Below, one piece after another: positions 2,544-14,878 of a stretch of 22,273 nucleotides of DNA (within the stretch, counting starts at the first letter, position 1; every line of letters begins with the position of its first letter). The notes below the pieces were generated by a model. The model had not been told where the DNA came from. It ran no database searches and saw only the letters and a list, made by a program, of their open reading frames with translations. The translations under genes and the position numbers were made by a program. The stretch is from a virus, in the IMG/VR virus record IMGVR_UViG_3300018080_000636, positions 1 to 22,273 of that record. The stretch is one strand, 5' to 3'.

Positions 2544-3068
2544 TTACAATAATGTTTCCCTAACTTTTTCCCAAGAAAATCCGATAGCTCTGTCATCGAC
2601 ATAGTAGTCAGCAGATATCTTCCTACAATCTCCACCAAAATAATTGGTACGCTCTGGTAAATTACAATTAATAGTGTTAAAATACCCGTACAAGTTATTT
2701 TTTTGTAGGAATAGAATAGCGTCCTCTAATGCTTTGCCTTCCCTACATGTATTGAGTACAAGGTCGTACTTCTCAGATAGAGCAGGTATTGTGTCTGCCG
2801 CATCTTGTATTAGCTCTCCTACATTAGGCCATGCACCGGCAGTTGCTATAGTTCCATCAAAATCTATAGCAACGGCTTGGCGAAATTCTAGCTGTTCTCT
2901 GTCCTTTTTTAGTAGCACATACATTTCTCTATATGTCTCTAGTACATCTTCCGGTGGGCACGTGTATACTGCTTCAAAAAGACAGCCACTGCAATCCTCT
3001 TTAACCAGACACCGTTCCGCTACATCTACATACTTCTGTGCAATCCTCATTAGCTTTTCGTAAGTCAC
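2544..3068 (-). CDS. HAD-superfamily phosphatase with Cys-rich N-terminus
   Basis: A 174-residue protein. Residues 66-174 are a HAD hydrolase: motif I AIDFDGTI with D69 as nucleophile and D71, motif II LNTCRE (Thr107), and motif IV YYVDDRAIG (D158/D159). This small cap-less form resembles the BT0820-like HAD group often found in phages; substrate is probably a nucleotide or sugar phosphate, not determined. The N-terminal 65 residues carry Cys20, 26, 29 and 37, which could bind a metal. The start is GTG with AAAGGA nine bases upstream. It overlaps the sigma-like gene out of frame by 68 bases, unusually long here; a later start at residue 50 would avoid this but has less support. Confidence 0.8.
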   Translation of the reverse strand: MTYEKLMRIAQKYVDVAERCLVKEDCSGCLFEAVYTCPPEDVLETYREMYVLLKKDREQLEFRQAVAIDFDGTIATAGAWPNVGELIQDAADTIPALSEKYDLVLNTCREGKALEDAILFLQKNNLYGYFNTINCNLPERTNYFGGDCRKISADYYVDDRAIGFSWEKVRETLL

Positions 3069-3549
3069 GTTGTATAATCCTTTCTATTTTACTTTTTACG
3101 GGTTTAAGGAGTTGATCTATACGTTGTCTTGTACAACCAAGCATACTACCTATCTCAGGGAAAGAATACCCTTTATACCTATTGAGAACTATAAAAGTCT
3201 GTGTAGTGTTTAATACTTTTAGTATTTGCTCTACCTTATCTTTAGCACAGACTATATCAAAGGGAGTATTTTGTATACATCCATATTTAGCTACGTCTTC
3301 TTTACACTCTGATGTAGCTTTTTTATGCTCATTTACCCTACGCAATTCTCTGTAGAGGCTACCTCGCACACATTGGTACATATAAGTGTTGAAAGAAGCA
3401 CCTTCTTGCTCCACATATCTCTTCGCTGCCCTGTACAGTGCTATCCAACCTTCCCCAATAAAGTCTTCGTATTGCACTCTATACGACATACAAAAATCTT
3501 TAACAATACCGTCTAGATCGTTAAGATAGTTATTAGGGTCTACTCTCAT
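3001..3549 (-). CDS. Sigma-70-like factor (distal of two)
   Basis: A 182-residue protein with sigma region 2 at about 28-72 (FIGEGWIALYRAAKRY then FNTYMYQCVRGSLYRELRR, the core-binding and -10 recognition pattern) and region 4 helix-turn-helix at about 112-160 (YSFPEIGSMLGCTRQRIDQL). Region 3 seems absent and region 1 is missing, as in ECF and phage sigma factors. It starts three bases after the previous sigma-like gene with AGGAG upstream. The last ~23 residues, rich in Cys and Glu, are encoded within the overlap with the HAD gene. Likely redirects RNA polymerase to phage middle or late promoters, such as those of the + strand virion genes (inference). Confidence 0.85.
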   Translation of the reverse strand: MRVDPNNYLNDLDGIVKDFCMSYRVQYEDFIGEGWIALYRAAKRYVEQEGASFNTYMYQCVRGSLYRELRRVNEHKKATSECKEDVAKYGCIQNTPFDIVCAKDKVEQILKVLNTTQTFIVLNRYKGYSFPEIGSMLGCTRQRIDQLLKPVKSKIERIIQRDLRKANEDCTEVCRCSGTVSG

Positions 3550-3552
3550 TGT

Positions 3553-4089
3553 TTACACCTCTCCTAGTTTTTTAAGTTCTTTGTTGTATTGTTTTATGAC
3601 TTTTTTTATTGCATCATTATATATTCTGCTTACTTTGGCGTTGTCTATCCCTAGTGTTTCTCCTATTTCTACGTTAGAATACTCATTTTGTACCCTTTCT
3701 AATACAATGTATCTTTCTAATGCAGTAAGTTTAGTGGCTTCATATAATATATACTCTATAAAATCCATAAAGTCAATATCTGTTATAGAAAAAACTTCAT
3801 TTTCTTTAGTCGCAATGTACTTAAGTTCATCTATTTCAGGGGGTTGGTTCAGGTTGTATAATTTGTAAATTTCACTGAGCACTCCATAGTAAATATAAGG
3901 ATATAAAAAAGTAAGGCGAGTACACCCATAGGATGGGTCATACCTGTCCCATACCTCTAGTAGTCTCATGTACCCCCCACTCTCTAGTTCGTCCATTGAC
4001 ACTCTCTTAACATTCCACTTACGAACTAATTTATAACATATCGCTTTGACTAGCGCGATATAATCTTCAGGTGTCCTCTGTATGCACAT
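3553..4089 (-). CDS. Sigma-70-like factor (proximal of two)
   Basis: A 178-residue protein beginning MCIQRTPEDYIALV. I chose ATG 4089 over an upstream TTG at 4110 because GGGGGAG stands at the right distance before it. Region 2-like sequence (MDELESGGYMRLLEVWDRY, later FLYPYIYYGVLSEIYKL) is followed by region 4 HTH (LTALERYIVLERV then YSNVEIGETLGIDNAKVSRI). It is clearly divergent from the neighbouring sigma-like gene, so the pair is not a recent duplication. The start overlaps the Rad50 C-terminal gene by 23 bases. The two could act at different times, or together as a two-part factor as described for SPO1 gp33/gp34 (inference). Confidence 0.8.
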   Translation of the reverse strand: MCIQRTPEDYIALVKAICYKLVRKWNVKRVSMDELESGGYMRLLEVWDRYDPSYGCTRLTFLYPYIYYGVLSEIYKLYNLNQPPEIDELKYIATKENEVFSITDIDFMDFIEYILYEATKLTALERYIVLERVQNEYSNVEIGETLGIDNAKVSRIYNDAIKKVIKQYNKELKKLGEV

Positions 4090-4651
4090 ACTTATCTCCC
4101 CCAACCCCAATAGACTTGCCTATACATAAACCTTCTTCGTGTGTGATCATTATAAACTGAATACCTAGGTTATCTCTAAAGTATAGCAGTAATTCACTTA
4201 CTTTACTGTGTAGATCCTTTTGGATATCTTTAAATGGTTCGTCTAAAATAAAGAGCTTCCTAGGGCACGTTGGATCAGCAAGCAGCGCAGCAATACGTAA
4301 AGCAAAATCAGCGATATCTCTAATGCCGCCCCCAATATCGTCTTTAAGGTCTAATTTATGCTGACCGTCATATATCACTAACTCTACTTCAGGATTACCT
4401 CGTTTAATTTTAAAATCCATATCAAACCTATAGGGTTTATTGGTAATTCCTTGGATCGCCTGTGTAACTATCTTACACAGCCTATGTTGCACCTGCTCCT
4501 GCACCTTCTGTCCTGCTTCTTGTGCTATTCGCAAGGCTTCCTCTGCGTGTGCTAATCCTTTTTGTTCCTTTGTGGTATTAACTTTGTTGTGTTCTATTAG
4601 GAATTCTAGTTCCTTTAACCTACCTTTTTGTTCTACAAGATGTTCTCTCAT
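4067..4651 (-). CDS. Rad50/SbcC-like ATPase, C-terminal piece (signature motif and Walker B)
   Basis: A 194-residue protein that completes an SMC-type ATPase head. Residues 1-65 are coiled coil. Then DIGGGIRDIADFALRIAALL is the ABC signature region, and RKLFILDEPFKDI the Walker B and D-loop (D followed by the catalytic Glu). FIMITHEEG holds the switch His. No Walker A is present; that lies in the gene at 5718-6728. ATG 4651 overlaps the stop of the small coiled-coil gene (ATGA) and has GGAG seven bases upstream. Must pair with the N-terminal piece to form an ATP site; the combined length (336+75+194) is close to T4 gp46. Confidence 0.88.
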   Translation of the reverse strand: MREHLVEQKGRLKELEFLIEHNKVNTTKEQKGLAHAEEALRIAQEAGQKVQEQVQHRLCKIVTQAIQGITNKPYRFDMDFKIKRGNPEVELVIYDGQHKLDLKDDIGGGIRDIADFALRIAALLADPTCPRKLFILDEPFKDIQKDLHSKVSELLLYFRDNLGIQFIMITHEEGLCIGKSIGVGGDKYVHTEDT

Positions 4652-4875
4652 AGATATTCTCCATACAATTTGTTAAACAAAGCGTACTTCTCTTCGAGTT
4701 CAGCTTTTTTTTCTGTTAGTTCGGAATCAAGTAGTTGTCTCATTTCTTCCGCTTGCTCTATTGTAGAGCAGCCGTAATTTTCTAGTTCCTTTCTCGCTTG
4801 TTCTAGCTTTCCTTTATTCTCTAGGAGAGATTCTTTAGCCTTGTCTAGCTTTACTTTAATATCCACAAGATTCAT
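4648..4875 (-). CDS. Small coiled-coil protein, middle piece of a split Rad50/SbcC
   Basis: A 75-residue, almost wholly helical, Lys/Glu-rich protein (KLDKAKESLLENKGKLEQAR and later ELTEKKAELEEKYALFNKLY). It lies between Mre11 and the Rad50 C-terminal piece, has GGAG six bases before its ATG, and ends with an ATGA overlap into the next gene in another frame. In an intact Rad50 this would be the ascending coiled coil after the zinc hook. One Cys (Cys35) is present in NYGCSTIEQ, but no CxxC. It may be a true separate gene or the product of a frameshift in an ancestral C-terminal half; own RBS on both sides favours the former. Confidence 0.75.
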   Translation of the reverse strand: MNLVDIKVKLDKAKESLLENKGKLEQARKELENYGCSTIEQAEEMRQLLDSELTEKKAELEEKYALFNKLYGEYL

Positions 4876-4878
4876 AAT

Positions 4879-5721
4879 TTACTCCATCGCTTTATCCACA
4901 TATTTTCTAGTTTCAACACATGTTTTTTGTTCGGCCATAATTTCATTTACGGTGTCTTTAAATGAAATATCTTTAGTTGTTTCAGTCTTAAAGTTATCTA
5001 TTGTTTTTTGTACCTTAGTTGTTAATACATGCTCATCACTAAACCATTCTGTAGATTGGTCTAGGTAAATAGGGGTACACACATTATCCTTATTTATCCT
5101 CCATATGCGTCCTTGATAATCCTTTTGTGTGGCGGTTCTCCTATAGACACCTCCACAGTTTAGGAAGGTGTAGTCCTTTTCATGTACGTAAAACGGGGTG
5201 TGGTTATCCCCACATATGTACAGTTTTTGTCCCTGTATTTGTTTTACTACATTTAAGTAGTTTCCTTTGGTTGGAGCATTGGGAAATGGTTTATGCATAT
5301 ACACTAGGTCATGGATAAGCACAACCCCTGATTTGTTTGCGTTATGAGGCACCCATGCTCTACTGTAGTCGTACCCCTTATGTCCGGCATACCCCCACTG
5401 ACAAGCCCTAGCTAATGTCCATAGAGGGGACAATCGAGCAAATTCAATGTTATTGTTTGGTAAGTCATGATTACCAAAGATATACTCCACGTTCTTTAGT
5501 GGGTACTGACTAAACCAGTTAATTACCTCATTAACAAATGATACTGAAGGAGTACACGAATCAAATACATCACCTGCTATATACACCTTGTTTGCATTCT
5601 CTGCTTGTGCACTTATCCACTGCACTACATTTCGTTGATACTTCATCCAATCAACCTCCCCTGCACGACACAAGGGAGGTTTTTCGGATAAATGAAGATC
5701 AGCAAAGGCTATTCTAGTCAT
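4879..5721 (-). CDS. Mre11/SbcD-like nuclease (T4 gp47 type)
   Basis: A 280-residue metallophosphoesterase. From ATG 5721 (AGGAA upstream; ATGA overlap with the Rad50 N-terminal gene) it shows FADLHLS (D8, H10), YIAGDVFDS (D51), IFGNHDLP (N84, H85), LIHDLV (H137) and ICGDNHT (H174), the phosphoesterase metal ligands in order. The C-terminal 60 residues are helical and charged, as in the Rad50-binding part of Mre11. Expected to act with the split Rad50 in double-strand-break end processing and recombination-dependent replication. It sits between the N- and C-terminal pieces of Rad50. An upstream TTG (5748) is less likely as a start. Confidence 0.9.
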   Translation of the reverse strand: MTRIAFADLHLSEKPPLCRAGEVDWMKYQRNVVQWISAQAENANKVYIAGDVFDSCTPSVSFVNEVINWFSQYPLKNVEYIFGNHDLPNNNIEFARLSPLWTLARACQWGYAGHKGYDYSRAWVPHNANKSGVVLIHDLVYMHKPFPNAPTKGNYLNVVKQIQGQKLYICGDNHTPFYVHEKDYTFLNCGGVYRRTATQKDYQGRIWRINKDNVCTPIYLDQSTEWFSDEHVLTTKVQKTIDNFKTETTKDISFKDTVNEIMAEQKTCVETRKYVDKAME

Positions 5722-6728
5722 GCTATTTCCTTTATAATTTGACCACAAGTAGGGCAGACAGAGCTATACGCTGTTTCAATCTCTTTATTCAACTGACTAA
5801 TTGTTTTTTCTATCCTACTTATCTCTTCTGCCTTCTGATTTATTACGTAGGTAATACTACCCAACAACCTATGTCTTACTTCTAGTGCGTCAGAGGCTTC
5901 TTTTATGTGTGTCAGTTCAAAATAAAATTCGTGCATGTCATTGTATGGTATTGTCTTTGTAGTCAACACCGTAAGGGCATTTACGATCCTCTGTTTTTGT
6001 TCTTCAATAGCTTCTATTTGTTCTAGGGTATCCTGTAGTACCCTTAGGTCGTTAGAAGCTCTCAGAATGGCTAAGAATGCGTTATTTAAGGTAATCTGTG
6101 TTTGTAGCTCCCGTGCATATTCTGTTTTCTCGGTTACTTCAGCTTCGATTCTCTCTAATTCGACTAAATGCTCCTCGTATGCTGCTAAGTAGGACAGCCC
6201 CTTGATACGTTCTGTGTACTCTTTATTCTGTTTATTTAATGTGCGTACCTGATCCCTGTGCCTTTTAACATCTAGTTTGATATTTCTAATTGTACTATCT
6301 ACTATAGTTAAATTCACAATTTCATTAAGCTTTTTACCTATTTCTGAAGGTGTGTCATTAACCAGAAAACGAGGATCATCTTGTCTCTTAGTGGAAGTAG
6401 TACTTAAATTTAGGATGTCAGTTACTTGCTTAGGCACCTTATTCCCAAAAGCTGTAAGTTCAACGCCATCAACGACATACTTATTCTCCTTTTTGCTTCT
6501 TATACGTTGTATTGTGTGATCATCTACAACTATCGTCACTACGCATTCGTCTTCCCCGTATGTGTTGTACTTCTTCCCCAATGGAGTGTTATAGAATACC
6601 CAGTCTAGCGCACGCAAGATAGCTGTCTTACCACTATCAGTAGCCCCTGTGATAGTAACGGACTCACTTAAATCTATAGTTAAGTCTTTGTGTATCTGAA
6701 AGTTACGTAAAGTTATGGACTTAATCAT
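5718..6728 (-). CDS. Rad50/SbcC-like ATPase, N-terminal piece ending at the zinc hook
   Basis: A 336-residue protein. MIKSITLRNFQIHKDLTIDL opens like SMC/Rad50; Walker A is GATDSGKT at 28-35. Residues ~150-320 form coiled coil. The chain ends VCPTCGQIIKEIA: Cys325-Pro-Thr-Cys328 is the zinc-hook motif found mid-protein in Rad50. So the gene stops eight residues after the hook, at the hairpin tip of the molecule, and lacks signature and Walker B motifs, which lie in 4067-4651. AGGA precedes ATG 6728; start overlaps the nuclease gene by eight bases, and the end overlaps Mre11 by four. Probable partner of Mre11 in end resection. Confidence 0.9.
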   Translation of the reverse strand: MIKSITLRNFQIHKDLTIDLSESVTITGATDSGKTAILRALDWVFYNTPLGKKYNTYGEDECVVTIVVDDHTIQRIRSKKENKYVVDGVELTAFGNKVPKQVTDILNLSTTSTKRQDDPRFLVNDTPSEIGKKLNEIVNLTIVDSTIRNIKLDVKRHRDQVRTLNKQNKEYTERIKGLSYLAAYEEHLVELERIEAEVTEKTEYARELQTQITLNNAFLAILRASNDLRVLQDTLEQIEAIEEQKQRIVNALTVLTTKTIPYNDMHEFYFELTHIKEASDALEVRHRLLGSITYVINQKAEEISRIEKTISQLNKEIETAYSSVCPTCGQIIKEIA

Positions 6729-7329
6729 TTTTACATCCTAATACGCTTTTAAGCAGCTCTGGGTCTACCCAATTAAGGAACGAGTCTAGCTGTGTAGATA
6801 AGATGTACACACTCCCTTCGTCAGTGTATTCCCATTTGTCTACTATAGAAATTGCTGAGGAATCCATAAACTCCCTATTCCCTGTGTGTGGTATAAGAAT
6901 GTGAAGAAACCCAGAAGGAATATGAATAATAGGCTTTCTCTTATCTCTTCTTGTGATCAACCAGAACCATTTAGTTCCATCTGTAGACATGTCTTCAAAT
7001 ATCTGATCAAACCACTTCTCATATTCCTGTGCTGTAGCGTTAGGTTTGTCCACTATATCATACGGGGTGTCCTTATTATACCCCCTTTTAAGTTCAATGT
7101 GTACATTATCAGTTAACACCATTCCGCTAGGATGTGTTGCGGTAATATCTCCTGATTGCCCATACGTCGCTAACCCTGCTGTTCTACGCCTATTAGTAGC
7201 TCTAGCACCAGAACCAGAAGTAAGCCAAAATATATCATCCTGCTTTCCGTTTGACCACCACATAGACAACATCTTGGCTATTTCTCGCTCAAAAGCCCCC
7301 CCTTTTCTCTTTTGTCCACCCTTCTTCAT
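6721..7329 (-). CDS. PD-(D/E)XK nuclease, possible Holliday-junction or recombination nuclease
   Basis: A 202-residue protein. A basic start (MKKGGQKRKG) is followed by FEREIAKML with Glu14/16, then GQSGDITATH with Asp61 and VHIELKRG with Glu79 and Lys81. The spacing E...D...ExK matches the PD-(D/E)XK core, and the FERE helix plus basic N-terminus recall Hjc-like resolvases. The C-terminal half is not recognised. It is joined by a 4-base ATGA overlap to the Ntn hydrolase and by 8 bases to Rad50, within the recombination block, which fits a role in resolving or trimming DNA junctions. Exact substrate unknown. Confidence 0.75.
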   Translation of the reverse strand: MKKGGQKRKGGAFEREIAKMLSMWWSNGKQDDIFWLTSGSGARATNRRRTAGLATYGQSGDITATHPSGMVLTDNVHIELKRGYNKDTPYDIVDKPNATAQEYEKWFDQIFEDMSTDGTKWFWLITRRDKRKPIIHIPSGFLHILIPHTGNREFMDSSAISIVDKWEYTDEGSVYILSTQLDSFLNWVDPELLKSVLGCKND

Positions 7330-7904
7330 ACTTCGCTCCTTTCCAGTATATCAATTGTGCCTTGCCTACTGATACGCCAGACATCAAACGGTGCATCAAC
7401 AGAGGGGCATAGCTTAGCCGCCGTATGTAAGGCCATCTTTATCTTATACACAGGTTTACCCTTAACGTGTTCTAATGCTGCTAAAGCGTACATATTACCA
7501 CTTCCTGTAGCAGCGTACTCCCCTATAGGTATCGGATATGCTTCGTACCACTCAGTTATTTCCCATAGAGTTCCTTGGTAGCACAATAAGCAATAAATAG
7601 AATTAGTATCCGAATCATTATCTGAGGTATACCCATAGGTTGCTAAGGTGCTGCGGAATGCTTCCATTACATCTACCTTAATATACGCTTCTATAGAACG
7701 TGTGGTTGCTCTTTCTGGAGGAACAAAAGCGTGTTGTAGGATGTCCGTCTGTCTAACTGCTCCACTCCATCCAATAACGATATCGCCATGCACAGATAGT
7801 TTACTTGCTTTTCTAGTGGTGTAGTAACCACCCCTAGTAATACACGTATCTGCTCCGAGGTACACGTTGCTCGTGCCATCTACGTAGCCTATAATACAGG
7901 TCAT
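7326..7904 (-). CDS. Proteasome beta/HslV-like Ntn hydrolase
   Basis: A 192-residue protein starting MTCIIGYVDG, then VYLGADTCITRG and RKASKLSVHGDIVIGWSGAV. After removal of Met, Thr2 would be the N-terminal nucleophile, with Asp19 and Lys35 at the places of Asp17 and Lys33 of the proteasome; Cys3 is next to it. IGEYAATGSGNMYALAALEH matches the later GSG region that closes the site in this fold. Phage homologues starting MTCI(I/V)G are known, mostly as uncharacterised Ntn-hydrolase or HslV-like proteins. No ATPase partner of HslU/ClpX type is seen. Embedded in the recombination operon with ATGA overlaps on both sides. Peptidase activity is likely by family, substrate unknown. Confidence 0.8.
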   Translation of the reverse strand: MTCIIGYVDGTSNVYLGADTCITRGGYYTTRKASKLSVHGDIVIGWSGAVRQTDILQHAFVPPERATTRSIEAYIKVDVMEAFRSTLATYGYTSDNDSDTNSIYCLLCYQGTLWEITEWYEAYPIPIGEYAATGSGNMYALAALEHVKGKPVYKIKMALHTAAKLCPSVDAPFDVWRISRQGTIDILERSEV

Positions 7905-10693: not shown

Positions 10694-11371
10694 CTAATAT
10701 TCATCATCCGCTTCCTTACCTTCTCTAAGGATCATACATGCCGCAGCTAGGTAATTGATAGCCCCATGTAGCTCATGTATTTGTGCTTCTGTGCCCTTTA
10801 GCTCACCAATAGTAATTGACTCTTCAATCTTCTTAACTGCTTGACCTAGTGGGAAGCCTGTGCCCACGCTACGTGTAATCTGTGCAATCGGTTGTGCATC
10901 GAAGGGAAGATTATTAGCGTGTCTTTCCTTACCTTTACCTGCTGAGGCTTGTACTAGGGCTTCTTTTAGTTCATTAAATAGTCCTAGATAACCAGAAGGA
11001 CAAGTCATATACGCATTTACCACATATTCTGTTTCACAGTCTGTTACCATATTTGGTTCAGTATTAGAGAAGAATCTATTATAACCGTGCACAGCTTCTT
11101 GAATCTTTCCATAAACGTTAGTGTCAACAGTAATGCTGACCTCATCGCATTCTTTATCGACCCCCTGCACCCAAAAATTACCGGGCTCCGCCCGCCACTC
11201 AGGAGAACCACTAGATATTAACGTAATACCGTTGTCGTGGTCGTAATAGTCTGCACCACACTCCCCGAATGCCGAGTTTCTATGTGTCTGTTTAGCTATT
11301 TTAAATGTTGTGGTGTATTCTATATCCTCCGTAGAAATTACCTCTAATTCAATCTGCTTTGCTTCATTCAT
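10694..11371 (-). CDS. Conserved phage protein with RHANNLPFDAQPI motif
   Basis: A 225-residue protein coupled to the polymerase gene by an ATGA overlap, with GGAGGAG upstream. The N-terminal two-thirds is beta-rich, with no motif I can name. The C-terminal third GKGKERHANNLPFDAQPI then TGFPLGQAVKKIEES and IHELHGAINYLAAACMIL is a pattern seen in many uncharacterised phage proteins and may form a small helical domain reminiscent of MazG/dNTP-hydrolase-like folds (uncertain). Its place next to DNA polymerase suggests a role in nucleotide or replication metabolism, by context only. Confidence 0.65.
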   Translation of the reverse strand: MNEAKQIELEVISTEDIEYTTTFKIAKQTHRNSAFGECGADYYDHDNGITLISSGSPEWRAEPGNFWVQGVDKECDEVSITVDTNVYGKIQEAVHGYNRFFSNTEPNMVTDCETEYVVNAYMTCPSGYLGLFNELKEALVQASAGKGKERHANNLPFDAQPIAQITRSVGTGFPLGQAVKKIEESITIGELKGTEAQIHELHGAINYLAAACMILREGKEADDEY

Positions 11372-12756
11372 AATTTAATCTCCTCCATTTCGTACCAAGT
11401 ACCATTTACAGGACTTGCTTCTGCTTCAACTTCGATTGGCACAGTAAGCCAATCGAATTCCCTTTGTGTTCCTTCTGTCATGTACTTTAAGGTTATACTC
11501 ATGAAATCGTCATATTCATCTTTATGAACATCTGCCACTAGACTATCGTGTATTTGTCCGATAATCTTGGATTTCATATTACGTTTTTTTATTTCATTTC
11601 CAACTTGAGTTACAGCCCACAACAGCACATGAAAACTACTTCCTTGAATAGGACAATTCACAACGAAGTTACGTTTAAAATTACCGTGTACTCTAAAGCC
11701 AGTTTTAGTATCAAACCAACCTCTTTGACAGTACCTCCAGTAAAATTCCTCTTTCCACTTCTTATATCCGGCAAATCGTTTATCCCAAAAGATATTCTCT
11801 GTGTCCTGTATGTGCTTACAAAAAGTGTTTGCTTTAGGGTACCTTTCTTTACCTTTAGGTAGACCTAAACAATTAACCCCTTTATCTACCAAATGGTCAA
11901 TAACTTTTTTCCCATTTTTTAAAGTTAATGTAAAACTATCTTCCCATAATGACGGTGCTATGGCTTTCCAATAACTCCCATAGAACTCTGGGAACGTAAA
12001 ATTACCCTTGGCTGTACTACGAATATCTTTTGTTACGTCCTCATCACTTAACATATAAGCGTCTTTGATAACATCCCTATGCATGTCCGTTCCGGGCTGT
12101 GTTAGGTAACGGATCATATTTTTGTCGTTATGATACGCCGCTCCTACTGTTACTTCAGCCCCTTTAAAATCGAACTCAACTAGCATATGATCTTGTCTGG
12201 GTATGATACACGAACGTATTATACGCTTCATATAGTCGTCACGCTTAGGAAAGTTCTGAAAATTAGGGCTATCACTGCTTGACCTATATGTACTTACTGT
12301 GTGTAAATTTAGGAATGTATGTACGTGCCCGTCTACACATTCGCCAGATAAGCCCTTTAAGTAAGTATCGCTTAGCTTTTGAGCTTGTCTATATTTTAAG
12401 TAGGCATTTGTAAAGTCGGTTCCTATTTTCTCAAGAGCAGCAACATCAGTAGAGGGTTGCCCCTCCGCTGTCTCCACCAGTATTGGGTAATCGAGTATAT
12501 CATAGAGGAGCTTACGCAATTGGGTAGTTGAGGTAAGTTTAAGTTCTTCTTCCCCCACCATGTCTTTCCATGTTTTATACTCAGGAAAGGATTTAAGGTA
12601 CTCTTCTGCCTCTACTTTAATCTGTCTTATTTCTGCGACAGATGTGTTAAGTTTTTCCGTATCTATCCTAAACCCAGCTTGTTCGATGTCAGCGAACACA
12701 GGCAAAGCATTGTGTAGTAATTCATAGCCTTTATGTGTTATAGGTTGTATTTGCAT
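11368..12756 (-). CDS. Family A DNA polymerase, polymerase domain only
   Basis: A 462-residue protein with the thumb-palm-fingers part of a PolA enzyme and no exonuclease. STYRSSSDSPNFQNFP (155-170) is the conserved RxSSxxPNxQN region. Motif A is VEFDFKGAEV (Asp196), motif B is RSTAKGNFTFPEFYG (Arg246, Lys250, Tyr259) and motif C is IGQIHDSLVAD (His402-404 region, catalytic Asp404), where the usual HDE is HDS. QGSSFHVLLWAV at 371-382 is the helix before motif C. The proofreading domain is a separate gene at 13736-14878, so the two probably assemble. GAGG stands eight bases before the ATG. It makes the leading enzyme of the phage replisome. Confidence 0.92.
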   Translation of the reverse strand: MQIQPITHKGYELLHNALPVFADIEQAGFRIDTEKLNTSVAEIRQIKVEAEEYLKSFPEYKTWKDMVGEEELKLTSTTQLRKLLYDILDYPILVETAEGQPSTDVAALEKIGTDFTNAYLKYRQAQKLSDTYLKGLSGECVDGHVHTFLNLHTVSTYRSSSDSPNFQNFPKRDDYMKRIIRSCIIPRQDHMLVEFDFKGAEVTVGAAYHNDKNMIRYLTQPGTDMHRDVIKDAYMLSDEDVTKDIRSTAKGNFTFPEFYGSYWKAIAPSLWEDSFTLTLKNGKKVIDHLVDKGVNCLGLPKGKERYPKANTFCKHIQDTENIFWDKRFAGYKKWKEEFYWRYCQRGWFDTKTGFRVHGNFKRNFVVNCPIQGSSFHVLLWAVTQVGNEIKKRNMKSKIIGQIHDSLVADVHKDEYDDFMSITLKYMTEGTQREFDWLTVPIEVEAEASPVNGTWYEMEEIKL

Positions 12757-13428: not shown

Positions 13429-13749
13429 TTACAAAAACGCTAGCTCTTTCATTTGCCTCTTTATGTCTTCATCAGTTATTACAGGAGCGTCTTTAAACCG
13501 CTCATAATCATCAGCGGTAAACTCTATATACTCTAGATTTCCCCAATAGTCACTAGGGCTATCGTTAGTATGGTGCCGCACTAGTTCGCTAATCTCATCC
13601 GACTGACAGTATATTATAGCGGACGCTGTATTATCTAGCCTAATTCCCACTATAACAGAATTACAACCCACGTCTACACCCATTATAACCCCGTATTCTC
13701 CGGTATCTAGGCGTACCTCATCCCCCACGGTAAAATCATGTATGCCCAT
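13429..13749 (-). CDS. 106-residue protein with an SH3/KOW-like N-terminus
   Basis: FTVGDEVRLDTGEYGVIMGV at 6-25, followed by a beta-rich stretch (SVIVGIRLDN), looks like a small SH3-like barrel of the kind found in KOW or Tudor proteins; the C-terminal half is acidic and helical. GGAG lies seven bases before ATG 13749. It overlaps the exonuclease gene by 14 bases, and is the first gene after a consensus promoter (13817-13845). Function unknown. Confidence 0.65.
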   Translation of the reverse strand: MGIHDFTVGDEVRLDTGEYGVIMGVDVGCNSVIVGIRLDNTASAIIYCQSDEISELVRHHTNDSPSDYWGNLEYIEFTADDYERFKDAPVITDEDIKRQMKELAFL

Positions 13750-14878
13750 TTGGTTTCTCCATTAAACGGGAAAGTTGCAATTCTGCTAATCTATACTCCA
13801 ACAAACTATCTAGTCCATTATACAACAAAAGAATGTCTTTGTCAAGTTTTTCTAACCTATTTTTTCCGTTACTACTGTCAGCTTCGTCTTCTGTTTTTAT
13901 ATATTTGACTACTGCCTCTTCGTATCCGTTAATACCGAAGTTAACGTATGACTGAAACTTAAGACCTGTACCCCCCTTCGCATTATTAAGTACATGAGCA
14001 CCTATCATAGTGTCATAGTACCACCCTTTTACCTCCGTATTTAACTTAGATAGTGACCACCTATGTTCGTACTTAAGATTTGCTGCTATTTTCTTAACAT
14101 GATCAGCCTTAAGAAATTCCTTAAAAGTGGCAACAATGTCAGGAGTAAATGAAAACGCTATGGTTTCTTGTCCTTCCCAACATATTGAGGCTGAAAGAAT
14201 CTTATGGTACTCTCTATCTGGTTTAAGACCAGTAGTTTCATAGTCAAAAGCACAGGTACATGACCCAGATATGTATTTATTAAGTTTATCATTTACTGTG
14301 TCTGGGTCATGTACTAGTTTTATCTCATCTTCCTCGTAAGGGACTTCATTAAGTATAGACCCATCTTCCTGTATTATATATGGATACGGTCTACCCTTTA
14401 ATTCTAGGGCTTTTACTAAGTTGCCTCTGAGGATATGATGAGCCGCTTTATATCTCCACCCCAACTCATCTATCCTCAAGGGGCAGCGTAGACACGATAC
14501 CCAACAATTTAAATCCCTGTTGGGTATATTAGTGCCATACCACCTATCCATACCAAAGGTACCCCATGCCCCCATATAGTGCGGCAGCACAACAGCCTTA
14601 ATAGCCTCTTCCCCGAATAGCAGAATATGTGTAGGGTTTAGGGTGTTAATAGCTTCCTGTATACGCAGAGTCTGTTCAGATATGCGCTTAGGGGTATGGG
14701 GACATCTACCTTTTTTAAGCGCAGGGTAATTCCCTCTTTCCTTATCCGGAAAGACAGCTATCCTGTGGAAAGTGTCGTCTTTAGATAAACCTTTCCTAAA
14801 GCACTCACTTATTAATTTACAGTGTGGTTCCCTACTAGTCAAAAAAGGATACGCATATACAATCAGGAAGTTCCCCAT
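13736..14878 (-). CDS. DnaQ/PolA-type 3'-5' exonuclease with UDG-like N-terminal domain
   Basis: A 380-residue protein. Residues ~205-370 are the proofreading exonuclease of a PolA enzyme: Exo I AFDYETTGL (D212, E214), Exo II IAANLKYEHRW (N267 with Glu271 in place of the usual Asp) and Exo III YNGLDSLLEY (Y353, D357). Residues 1-165 resemble a uracil-DNA-glycosylase fold, with ILLFGEEAIKAV at 85-96 as the best match and Cys20, 59, 125, 130 and 132 present; the active-site GEAPG-type loop and HPS motif are not seen, so it may be structural. Such an extra N-terminal domain is known in some large phage polymerases. The polymerase domain is the separate gene at 11368-12756. TAATG overlap with the gene upstream. 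Confidence 0.82.
   Translation of the reverse strand: MGNFLIVYAYPFLTSREPHCKLISECFRKGLSKDDTFHRIAVFPDKERGNYPALKKGRCPHTPKRISEQTLRIQEAINTLNPTHILLFGEEAIKAVVLPHYMGAWGTFGMDRWYGTNIPNRDLNCWVSCLRCPLRIDELGWRYKAAHHILRGNLVKALELKGRPYPYIIQEDGSILNEVPYEEDEIKLVHDPDTVNDKLNKYISGSCTCAFDYETTGLKPDREYHKILSASICWEGQETIAFSFTPDIVATFKEFLKADHVKKIAANLKYEHRWSLSKLNTEVKGWYYDTMIGAHVLNNAKGGTGLKFQSYVNFGINGYEEAVVKYIKTEDEADSSNGKNRLEKLDKDILLLYNGLDSLLEYRLAELQLSRLMEKPNGHT
13817..13845 (-). promoter_or_regulatory. Consensus sigma-70 promoter inside the exonuclease gene
   Basis: On the - strand TTGACA (13840-13845), a 17-base spacer and TATAAT (13817-13822): both boxes match consensus in full with the best spacing. It lies over the codons for the Exo III motif (KLDKDILLLYN), near the gene's 3' end, about 60 bases before the next start at 13749. 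It could drive the small genes, polymerase and SSB as a separate unit. Confidence 0.7.

Follow-up and report, generated by a model that had tools for sequence, protein, structure and literature searches.

Results

The window, by which we mean the whole stretch of 22,273 bases analysed here, is an entire IMG/VR virus record, and four of its genes, read on the minus strand in the order N, Mre11, s and C, appear to encode a Mre11 nuclease and a Rad50 in pieces. The Rad50 N-part (5718-6728, minus strand) is a protein of 336 aa with a Walker A lobe, an outgoing arm and a C-terminal zinc hook; Walker A was read from the sequence as GATDSGKT (6624..6647, minus strand; residues 28-35), and the predicted hook, CPTC (5745..5756, minus strand; residues 325-328), occupies the far end of the outgoing coil, as in Rad50/SbcC, with the stop eight residues on. 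The Mre11/SbcD nuclease gene (4879-5721, minus strand) was taken to start at the ATG at 5721, the TTG at 5748 of the mechanical ORF list being rejected as falling within N. The third gene, s (4648-4875, minus strand), encodes a 75-aa coiled-coil protein, either a third Rad50 piece or a dedicated subunit, and the Rad50 C-part, C (4067-4651, minus strand), comprises 194 aa with a short coil, the ABC signature region DIGGGIRD (4316..4339, minus strand; GGGI is residues 107-110), Walker B (LFILDE of LFILDEP; 4238..4255, minus strand; D137 and E138) and ITH, the H-loop of Rad50/SbcC. Stop and start codons overlap as ATGA at the junctions of N with Mre11 (four bases, 5718-5721, minus strand) and of s with C (4648-4651, minus strand), and a gap of three bases separates Mre11 from s. 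This locus thus does not encode a single-chain Rad50 whose antiparallel coiled coil is intact.

The surroundings are phage replication and recombination genes, which by Pfam and PHROGs include a primase, a DnaB-like helicase, a Gp2.5-like SSB, UvsY-like and UvsX-like proteins and a RusA/PDDEXK resolvase. Directly downstream of C lie two adjacent sigma-factor-like genes (3001-3549 and 3553-4110, minus strand), one of which overlaps the end of C, and a gene for an HslV/proteasome-like peptidase (7326-7904, minus strand; phrog_1040, 3e-22) sits inside the recombination cluster. The DNA polymerase of the window likewise comes as two genes (11368-12756 and 13736-14878, minus strand) with small ORFs between them, both of which match phrog_17, at profile positions 834-1236 and 646-829.

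Database comparisons assigned N and C to Rad50. The window N-part matched AAA_23 of Pfam (4e-14) and phrog_16465 of PHROGs (4e-26), with SbcC-like families among its matches, and the N profile had Rad50 as its best PDB match (3.9e-17) and also matched the solved hook 6zff (6e-4). An AF2 model of the window N-part (pLDDT 85) gave Mre11-Rad50 as its fold match in the PDB (7.5e-6), and this model and that of N from another locus, L093, both resemble Rad50 heads. The window C-part matched phrog_15167 of PHROGs, annotated 'ATPase' (4e-19), and Rad50 was again the best PDB match of the C profile (3.1e-15). In an alignment of 49 N-parts, G28, G33 and K34 of Walker A, Q116 of the Q-loop and the hook cysteines C325 and C328 are invariant, with P326 kept in >90%; G107 and G109 of the signature and D137 and E138 of Walker B are invariant in 44 aligned C-parts. 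The ATPase motifs, some on N and the others on C, are thus invariant, which supports a Rad50 in pieces. Every NCBIfam match of the window pieces, including any to curated single-chain SbcC/Rad50 models, is far below the cut-off, and s has only coiled-coil-level similarity to Rad50. The window Mre11 matched Metallophos_2 of Pfam (6e-8) and TIGR00619 sbcD (1e-5), and six of the eight metal-binding positions checked in the five phosphoesterase motifs are invariant in 145 homologues, which we counted as conservation of the site; the N of motif III (GNHD) is replaced by Q in 40 of these homologues and the first H of motif V (GHxH) by D in 57, the window (GDNH) included. By eye, the C-terminal 40 residues of the window Mre11 appear helical.

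N homologues were found by a profile scan on 161 viral contigs and by a genome scan at 141 cellular loci, mostly in Firmicutes, and 80 of each were retrieved. When viral contigs were pooled with bacterial genomes, a CxxC lay within 40 residues of the C-terminus in 139 of 142 distinct complete N-parts, the hook being missing from three viral ones, and separate complete genes for N, Mre11, s and C are present at 114 loci. The claim of the sequence-only reading that Rad50 is divided into three pieces with a break at the hook is therefore borne out by its relatives, and the same counts, together with the invariant cysteines, rule out chance, a frameshift or a sequencing error. Nearly all viral N-parts stop a few residues past CPxC. 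Among viral loci with enough sequence, the order noticed in the window, N-Mre11-s-C with each as its own gene, proved to be the usual one; other genes can intervene between viral s and C, which are then separated by as much as 1.3 kb. A DNA-level search of phage records returned nothing, and viral scans that used C or Mre11 as a single sequence gave no relatives, so that alignments had to be used. Only two isolate phages with a split Rad50 were found. In Microbacterium phage Magritte (OR553905.1; our loci L089 and L090), the record is 133 kb long, with N at 93.8 kb and C at 0.3 kb, and the hook has been lost from N. Two viral contigs have between s and C a gene that starts MERRNF/MKRRKF and has a signal-like N-terminus (L073:9115-9705 and L078:9262-9780). 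No s was found in L063 and L116, and at the expected position of s in L116 there is a short remnant-like reading frame (L116:8437-8525), with N and C intact. The ATPases near recT in temperate phages (Diva, YPHTV-1 and Mimir87) are distant single chains and were rejected as members.

The cellular loci mostly have the order Mre11-N-s-C, with an N of 357-495 aa whose hook is close to its end and with N-s-C junctions of a median of 1-2 bases, and this order is collinear with intact Rad50. Thus, the nesting of Mre11 between the Rad50 pieces, which the sequence-only reading had stressed, is a property of the viral order and not of the cellular one, and the split form is not confined to phages but is a chromosomal cluster in many Firmicutes. 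The arrangement recA-Mre11-N-s-C-rny is present at 51 of 80 loci, and both recA and rny flank 45 of the 60 loci that have sufficient flank; the identity of RecA, RecX and RNase Y was confirmed with NCBIfam in sample loci. This location indicates that the cluster is chromosomal in Firmicutes and probably vertically inherited in the group. The Moorella locus (L167) appears to be prophage-borne. Among 299 genomes from the phylum, C is present in 49 and canonical sbcC in 122, and the two occur together in 2 genomes versus 20 expected (Fisher p=5e-10, a statistic that ignores phylogeny); in seven of eight split-form genomes checked, there was no sbcC match, only the split form. Relatives with a single intact Rad50, which would speak against a true split, were not found, and C is a separate gene in 48 of the 49 Firmicutes genomes with a C match. 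The remaining genome encodes a 700-aa fusion of Mre11, the Rad50 N-lobe and the C-lobe (L186:4652-6754, minus strand) with almost no coil and without a hook; by eye, it adjoins an AddB-like gene. The fusion supports a joint function of Mre11, N and C, and since it is without arm or hook, neither is strictly required in the family and the hook can be lost.

Mre11, N, s and C are all under purifying selection, with a pairwise dN/dS of 0.00-0.22 for s homologues, and this, together with the same break in homologues, agrees with the earlier view that the split is stable and not decayed. A tree of N-lobe and C with T4 gp46 as outgroup gave a viral clade (support 0.95), with the window inside, and a cellular clade (support 0.997), which contains Bacillus phage vB_BboS-125 and the L186 fusion. 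Because both clades are split, the split probably predates their separation.

Arm length, measured from the lobe end to the hook, is about 151, 198 or 245 residues in the viral clade and about 254 or 301 in the cellular clade, which corresponds to the series 104 + 47n and 113 + 47n. Arms deviate from these series by no more than 3 residues in 47 of 61 and 72 of 78 cases versus 9 and 12 expected, with offsets picked after seeing the data; the arm of the window (185 residues; 185-189 in its subclade) is about 12 residues under the n = 2 value. Hydrophobicity autocorrelation has its maximum at lag 47 (0.20-0.24) in every arm class except the shortest. In the AF2 model of the window N the arm is one long helix, and in that of L093 the arm helices are broken about every 47 residues. 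Arm-length class changes 17 times on the tree versus 47 in shuffles, and the changes are recurrent. Neither s (mostly 75-100 aa) nor the coil of C (mostly 53-75) tracks arm length, and the return coil is constant at about 135-150 residues, which in most members is much less than the arm. As the arm grows in 47-residue steps and the return coil is fixed, a simple two-strand arm does not fit the majority of members; matching lengths were rejected as proof of pairing, since s and the C coil together equal the N arm only in the shortest class. The arm is poorly conserved save for its two ends. Identity of cellular s is 0.48 versus about 0.15 for the N arm, about threefold, and s equals Mre11 and C in conservation; the s family profile (A7), built from 47 loci, picks up the window s at E 8e-16. 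Higher conservation of s than of the arm would fit a dedicated subunit no less than a fragment.

Discussion

We consider it likely that the products of the four genes form a single DNA-end processing complex of the Mre11-Rad50 (SbcDC) type, with a Rad50 that would consist of three chains and an ATPase that would be assembled in trans; from the sequences we infer its assembly, its ATPase and nuclease activity, its zinc dimerisation and the position of s. The Walker A lobe would come from N, together with the CPxC hook and the helical arm that leads out to it; C would contribute the lobe with signature and Walker B plus the final stretch of the returning coil, and s an 80-residue helical piece packing with the arm and/or the proximal coil. 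The ATP-binding head may then be built in trans from N and C and bound by Mre11, and two heads would close on ATP and gate Mre11, as in Rad50. One zinc would be common to two N hooks and would join the arms N to N; it cannot link N to C, because CxxC is present only on N and absent from s and C. With the chain broken past the hook, the return strand would not be covalently attached to the tip, and N and C would meet via their ATPase lobes, Mre11 and helix pairing. The sequence-only reading had proposed arms tied only by zinc or by helix pairing; of this, zinc is left with the N-to-N contact, and pairing of s and C with the arm fits the shortest arms only. The phage complex, encoded next to genes for UvsX-, UvsY- and resolvase-like proteins, probably serves recombination-dependent replication by processing ends. 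Beside recA in Firmicutes, the split complex likely takes the place of SbcCD.

Split genes on single metagenomic contigs are frequently artefacts, and the pieces might be what decay or mis-assembly has made of an ordinary Rad50 gene; since 139 of 142 homologues are broken at the identical place, the split recurs in isolate phages as well as in bacterial genomes, every piece is under purifying selection and other genes intervene between pieces, we give this explanation almost no credence. A role different from SbcCD-type end processing, such as anti-phage defence or a RecN-like function, is suggested by the weak similarity of N to many defence ATPases (LmuB, AriA and GajA among them); however, the PADLOC matches are weak, mostly concern the ATPase lobe and form no complete system, Mre11 is in the same cluster at nearly all loci, phage copies sit among replication and recombination genes, and both the recA location and the near-exclusion with sbcC point to end processing, so that we regard such a role as improbable.

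The position of s within the proposed complex allows a further choice. It may be an added third subunit, a cofactor or regulator on the heads, Mre11 or the proximal coil, in which case Rad50 proper would be N plus C and the arm largely single-chain. The conservation of cellular s, like that of Mre11 and C and far above that of the arm, the independence of its length from arm length and its ability in phages to stand apart from C with other genes between all favour such a subunit, but in cells the s gene fills the collinear position between those for N and C nearly without a gap, its product is a simple coiled coil in which no other domain was found, and s plus C coil comes near the shortest arm class (about 140 versus 150 residues). 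We find an added subunit plausible while leaning somewhat against it. We also put forward, tentatively and as rather doubtful, that the arm, in place of a fixed two-strand coil, consists of 47-residue modules (n = 1 to 4) that make up a single-chain rod or bundle with a hook, and that s is a detachable return element of constant size. If this modular arm is true, the Mre11-Rad50 ring could open or change length along the arm while the zinc hook stays closed, and arm length could evolve one module per step.

The arms and hook of Rad50 are usually regarded as a continuous chain through the tip. On the three-chain interpretation that we prefer, a natural Rad50 cut at the tip would separate hook dimerisation from arm continuity, and its pieces can be expressed, mixed and removed singly. 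The split form is apparently the sole SbcCD-type Rad50 in many Firmicutes, which explains the seeming absence of SbcC, and the finding corrects several 'exonuclease', 'ATPase' and 'hypothetical' annotations. NCBIfam and PHROGs handle the pieces as unconnected: PHROG 16465 (exonuclease), 18563 (unknown) and 15167 (ATPase) are separate families with matches to N, s and C from cells, and the PHROG output links them neither to each other nor to one split Rad50. In the open-access papers searched, we found no description of a Rad50 divided among three genes with the cut at the hook. The best NCBIfam match of the window N (5.7e-13) is the archaea-specific SMC-related protein ASRP (NF045487), a single 593-position model whose cut-off is far above the score of the window N (48 versus 300 bits).

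Bacillus phage vB_BboS-125 (MH884509) likewise has a hook-ended N (471 aa, CPLC plus 9), a 78-aa coil, a C of 211 aa and an unannotated Mre11, with pieces annotated as two 'chromosome segregation proteins'; it differs from the window in its order, N-(AP2 gene)-s-C-Mre11, its long arm and its place in the cellular clade. The AP2-domain gene occupies the hook break, with N on one side and s on the other (L002:7407-7979), and a similar gene was seen at L088:4888-5589. Fusion proteins of Mre11 and Rad50 are known (Mimivirus R555 and others) and attest to a plastic Mre11 and Rad50 gene architecture in viruses and Firmicutes (PMC3175470); they are the rearrangement opposite to the split, and neither 'split' nor 'hook' occurs in that paper. 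With T4 gp46/gp47 and SbcC/SbcD, the split form has in common the succession of Walker A lobe, coil, CxxC hook, coil and signature/Walker B lobe, a nearby gene for the Mre11 partner and the phage recombination context. T4 gp46, however, is an intact chain of 560 aa with its CxxC mid-chain at residue 288, whereas the split form has three chains and a C-terminal hook.
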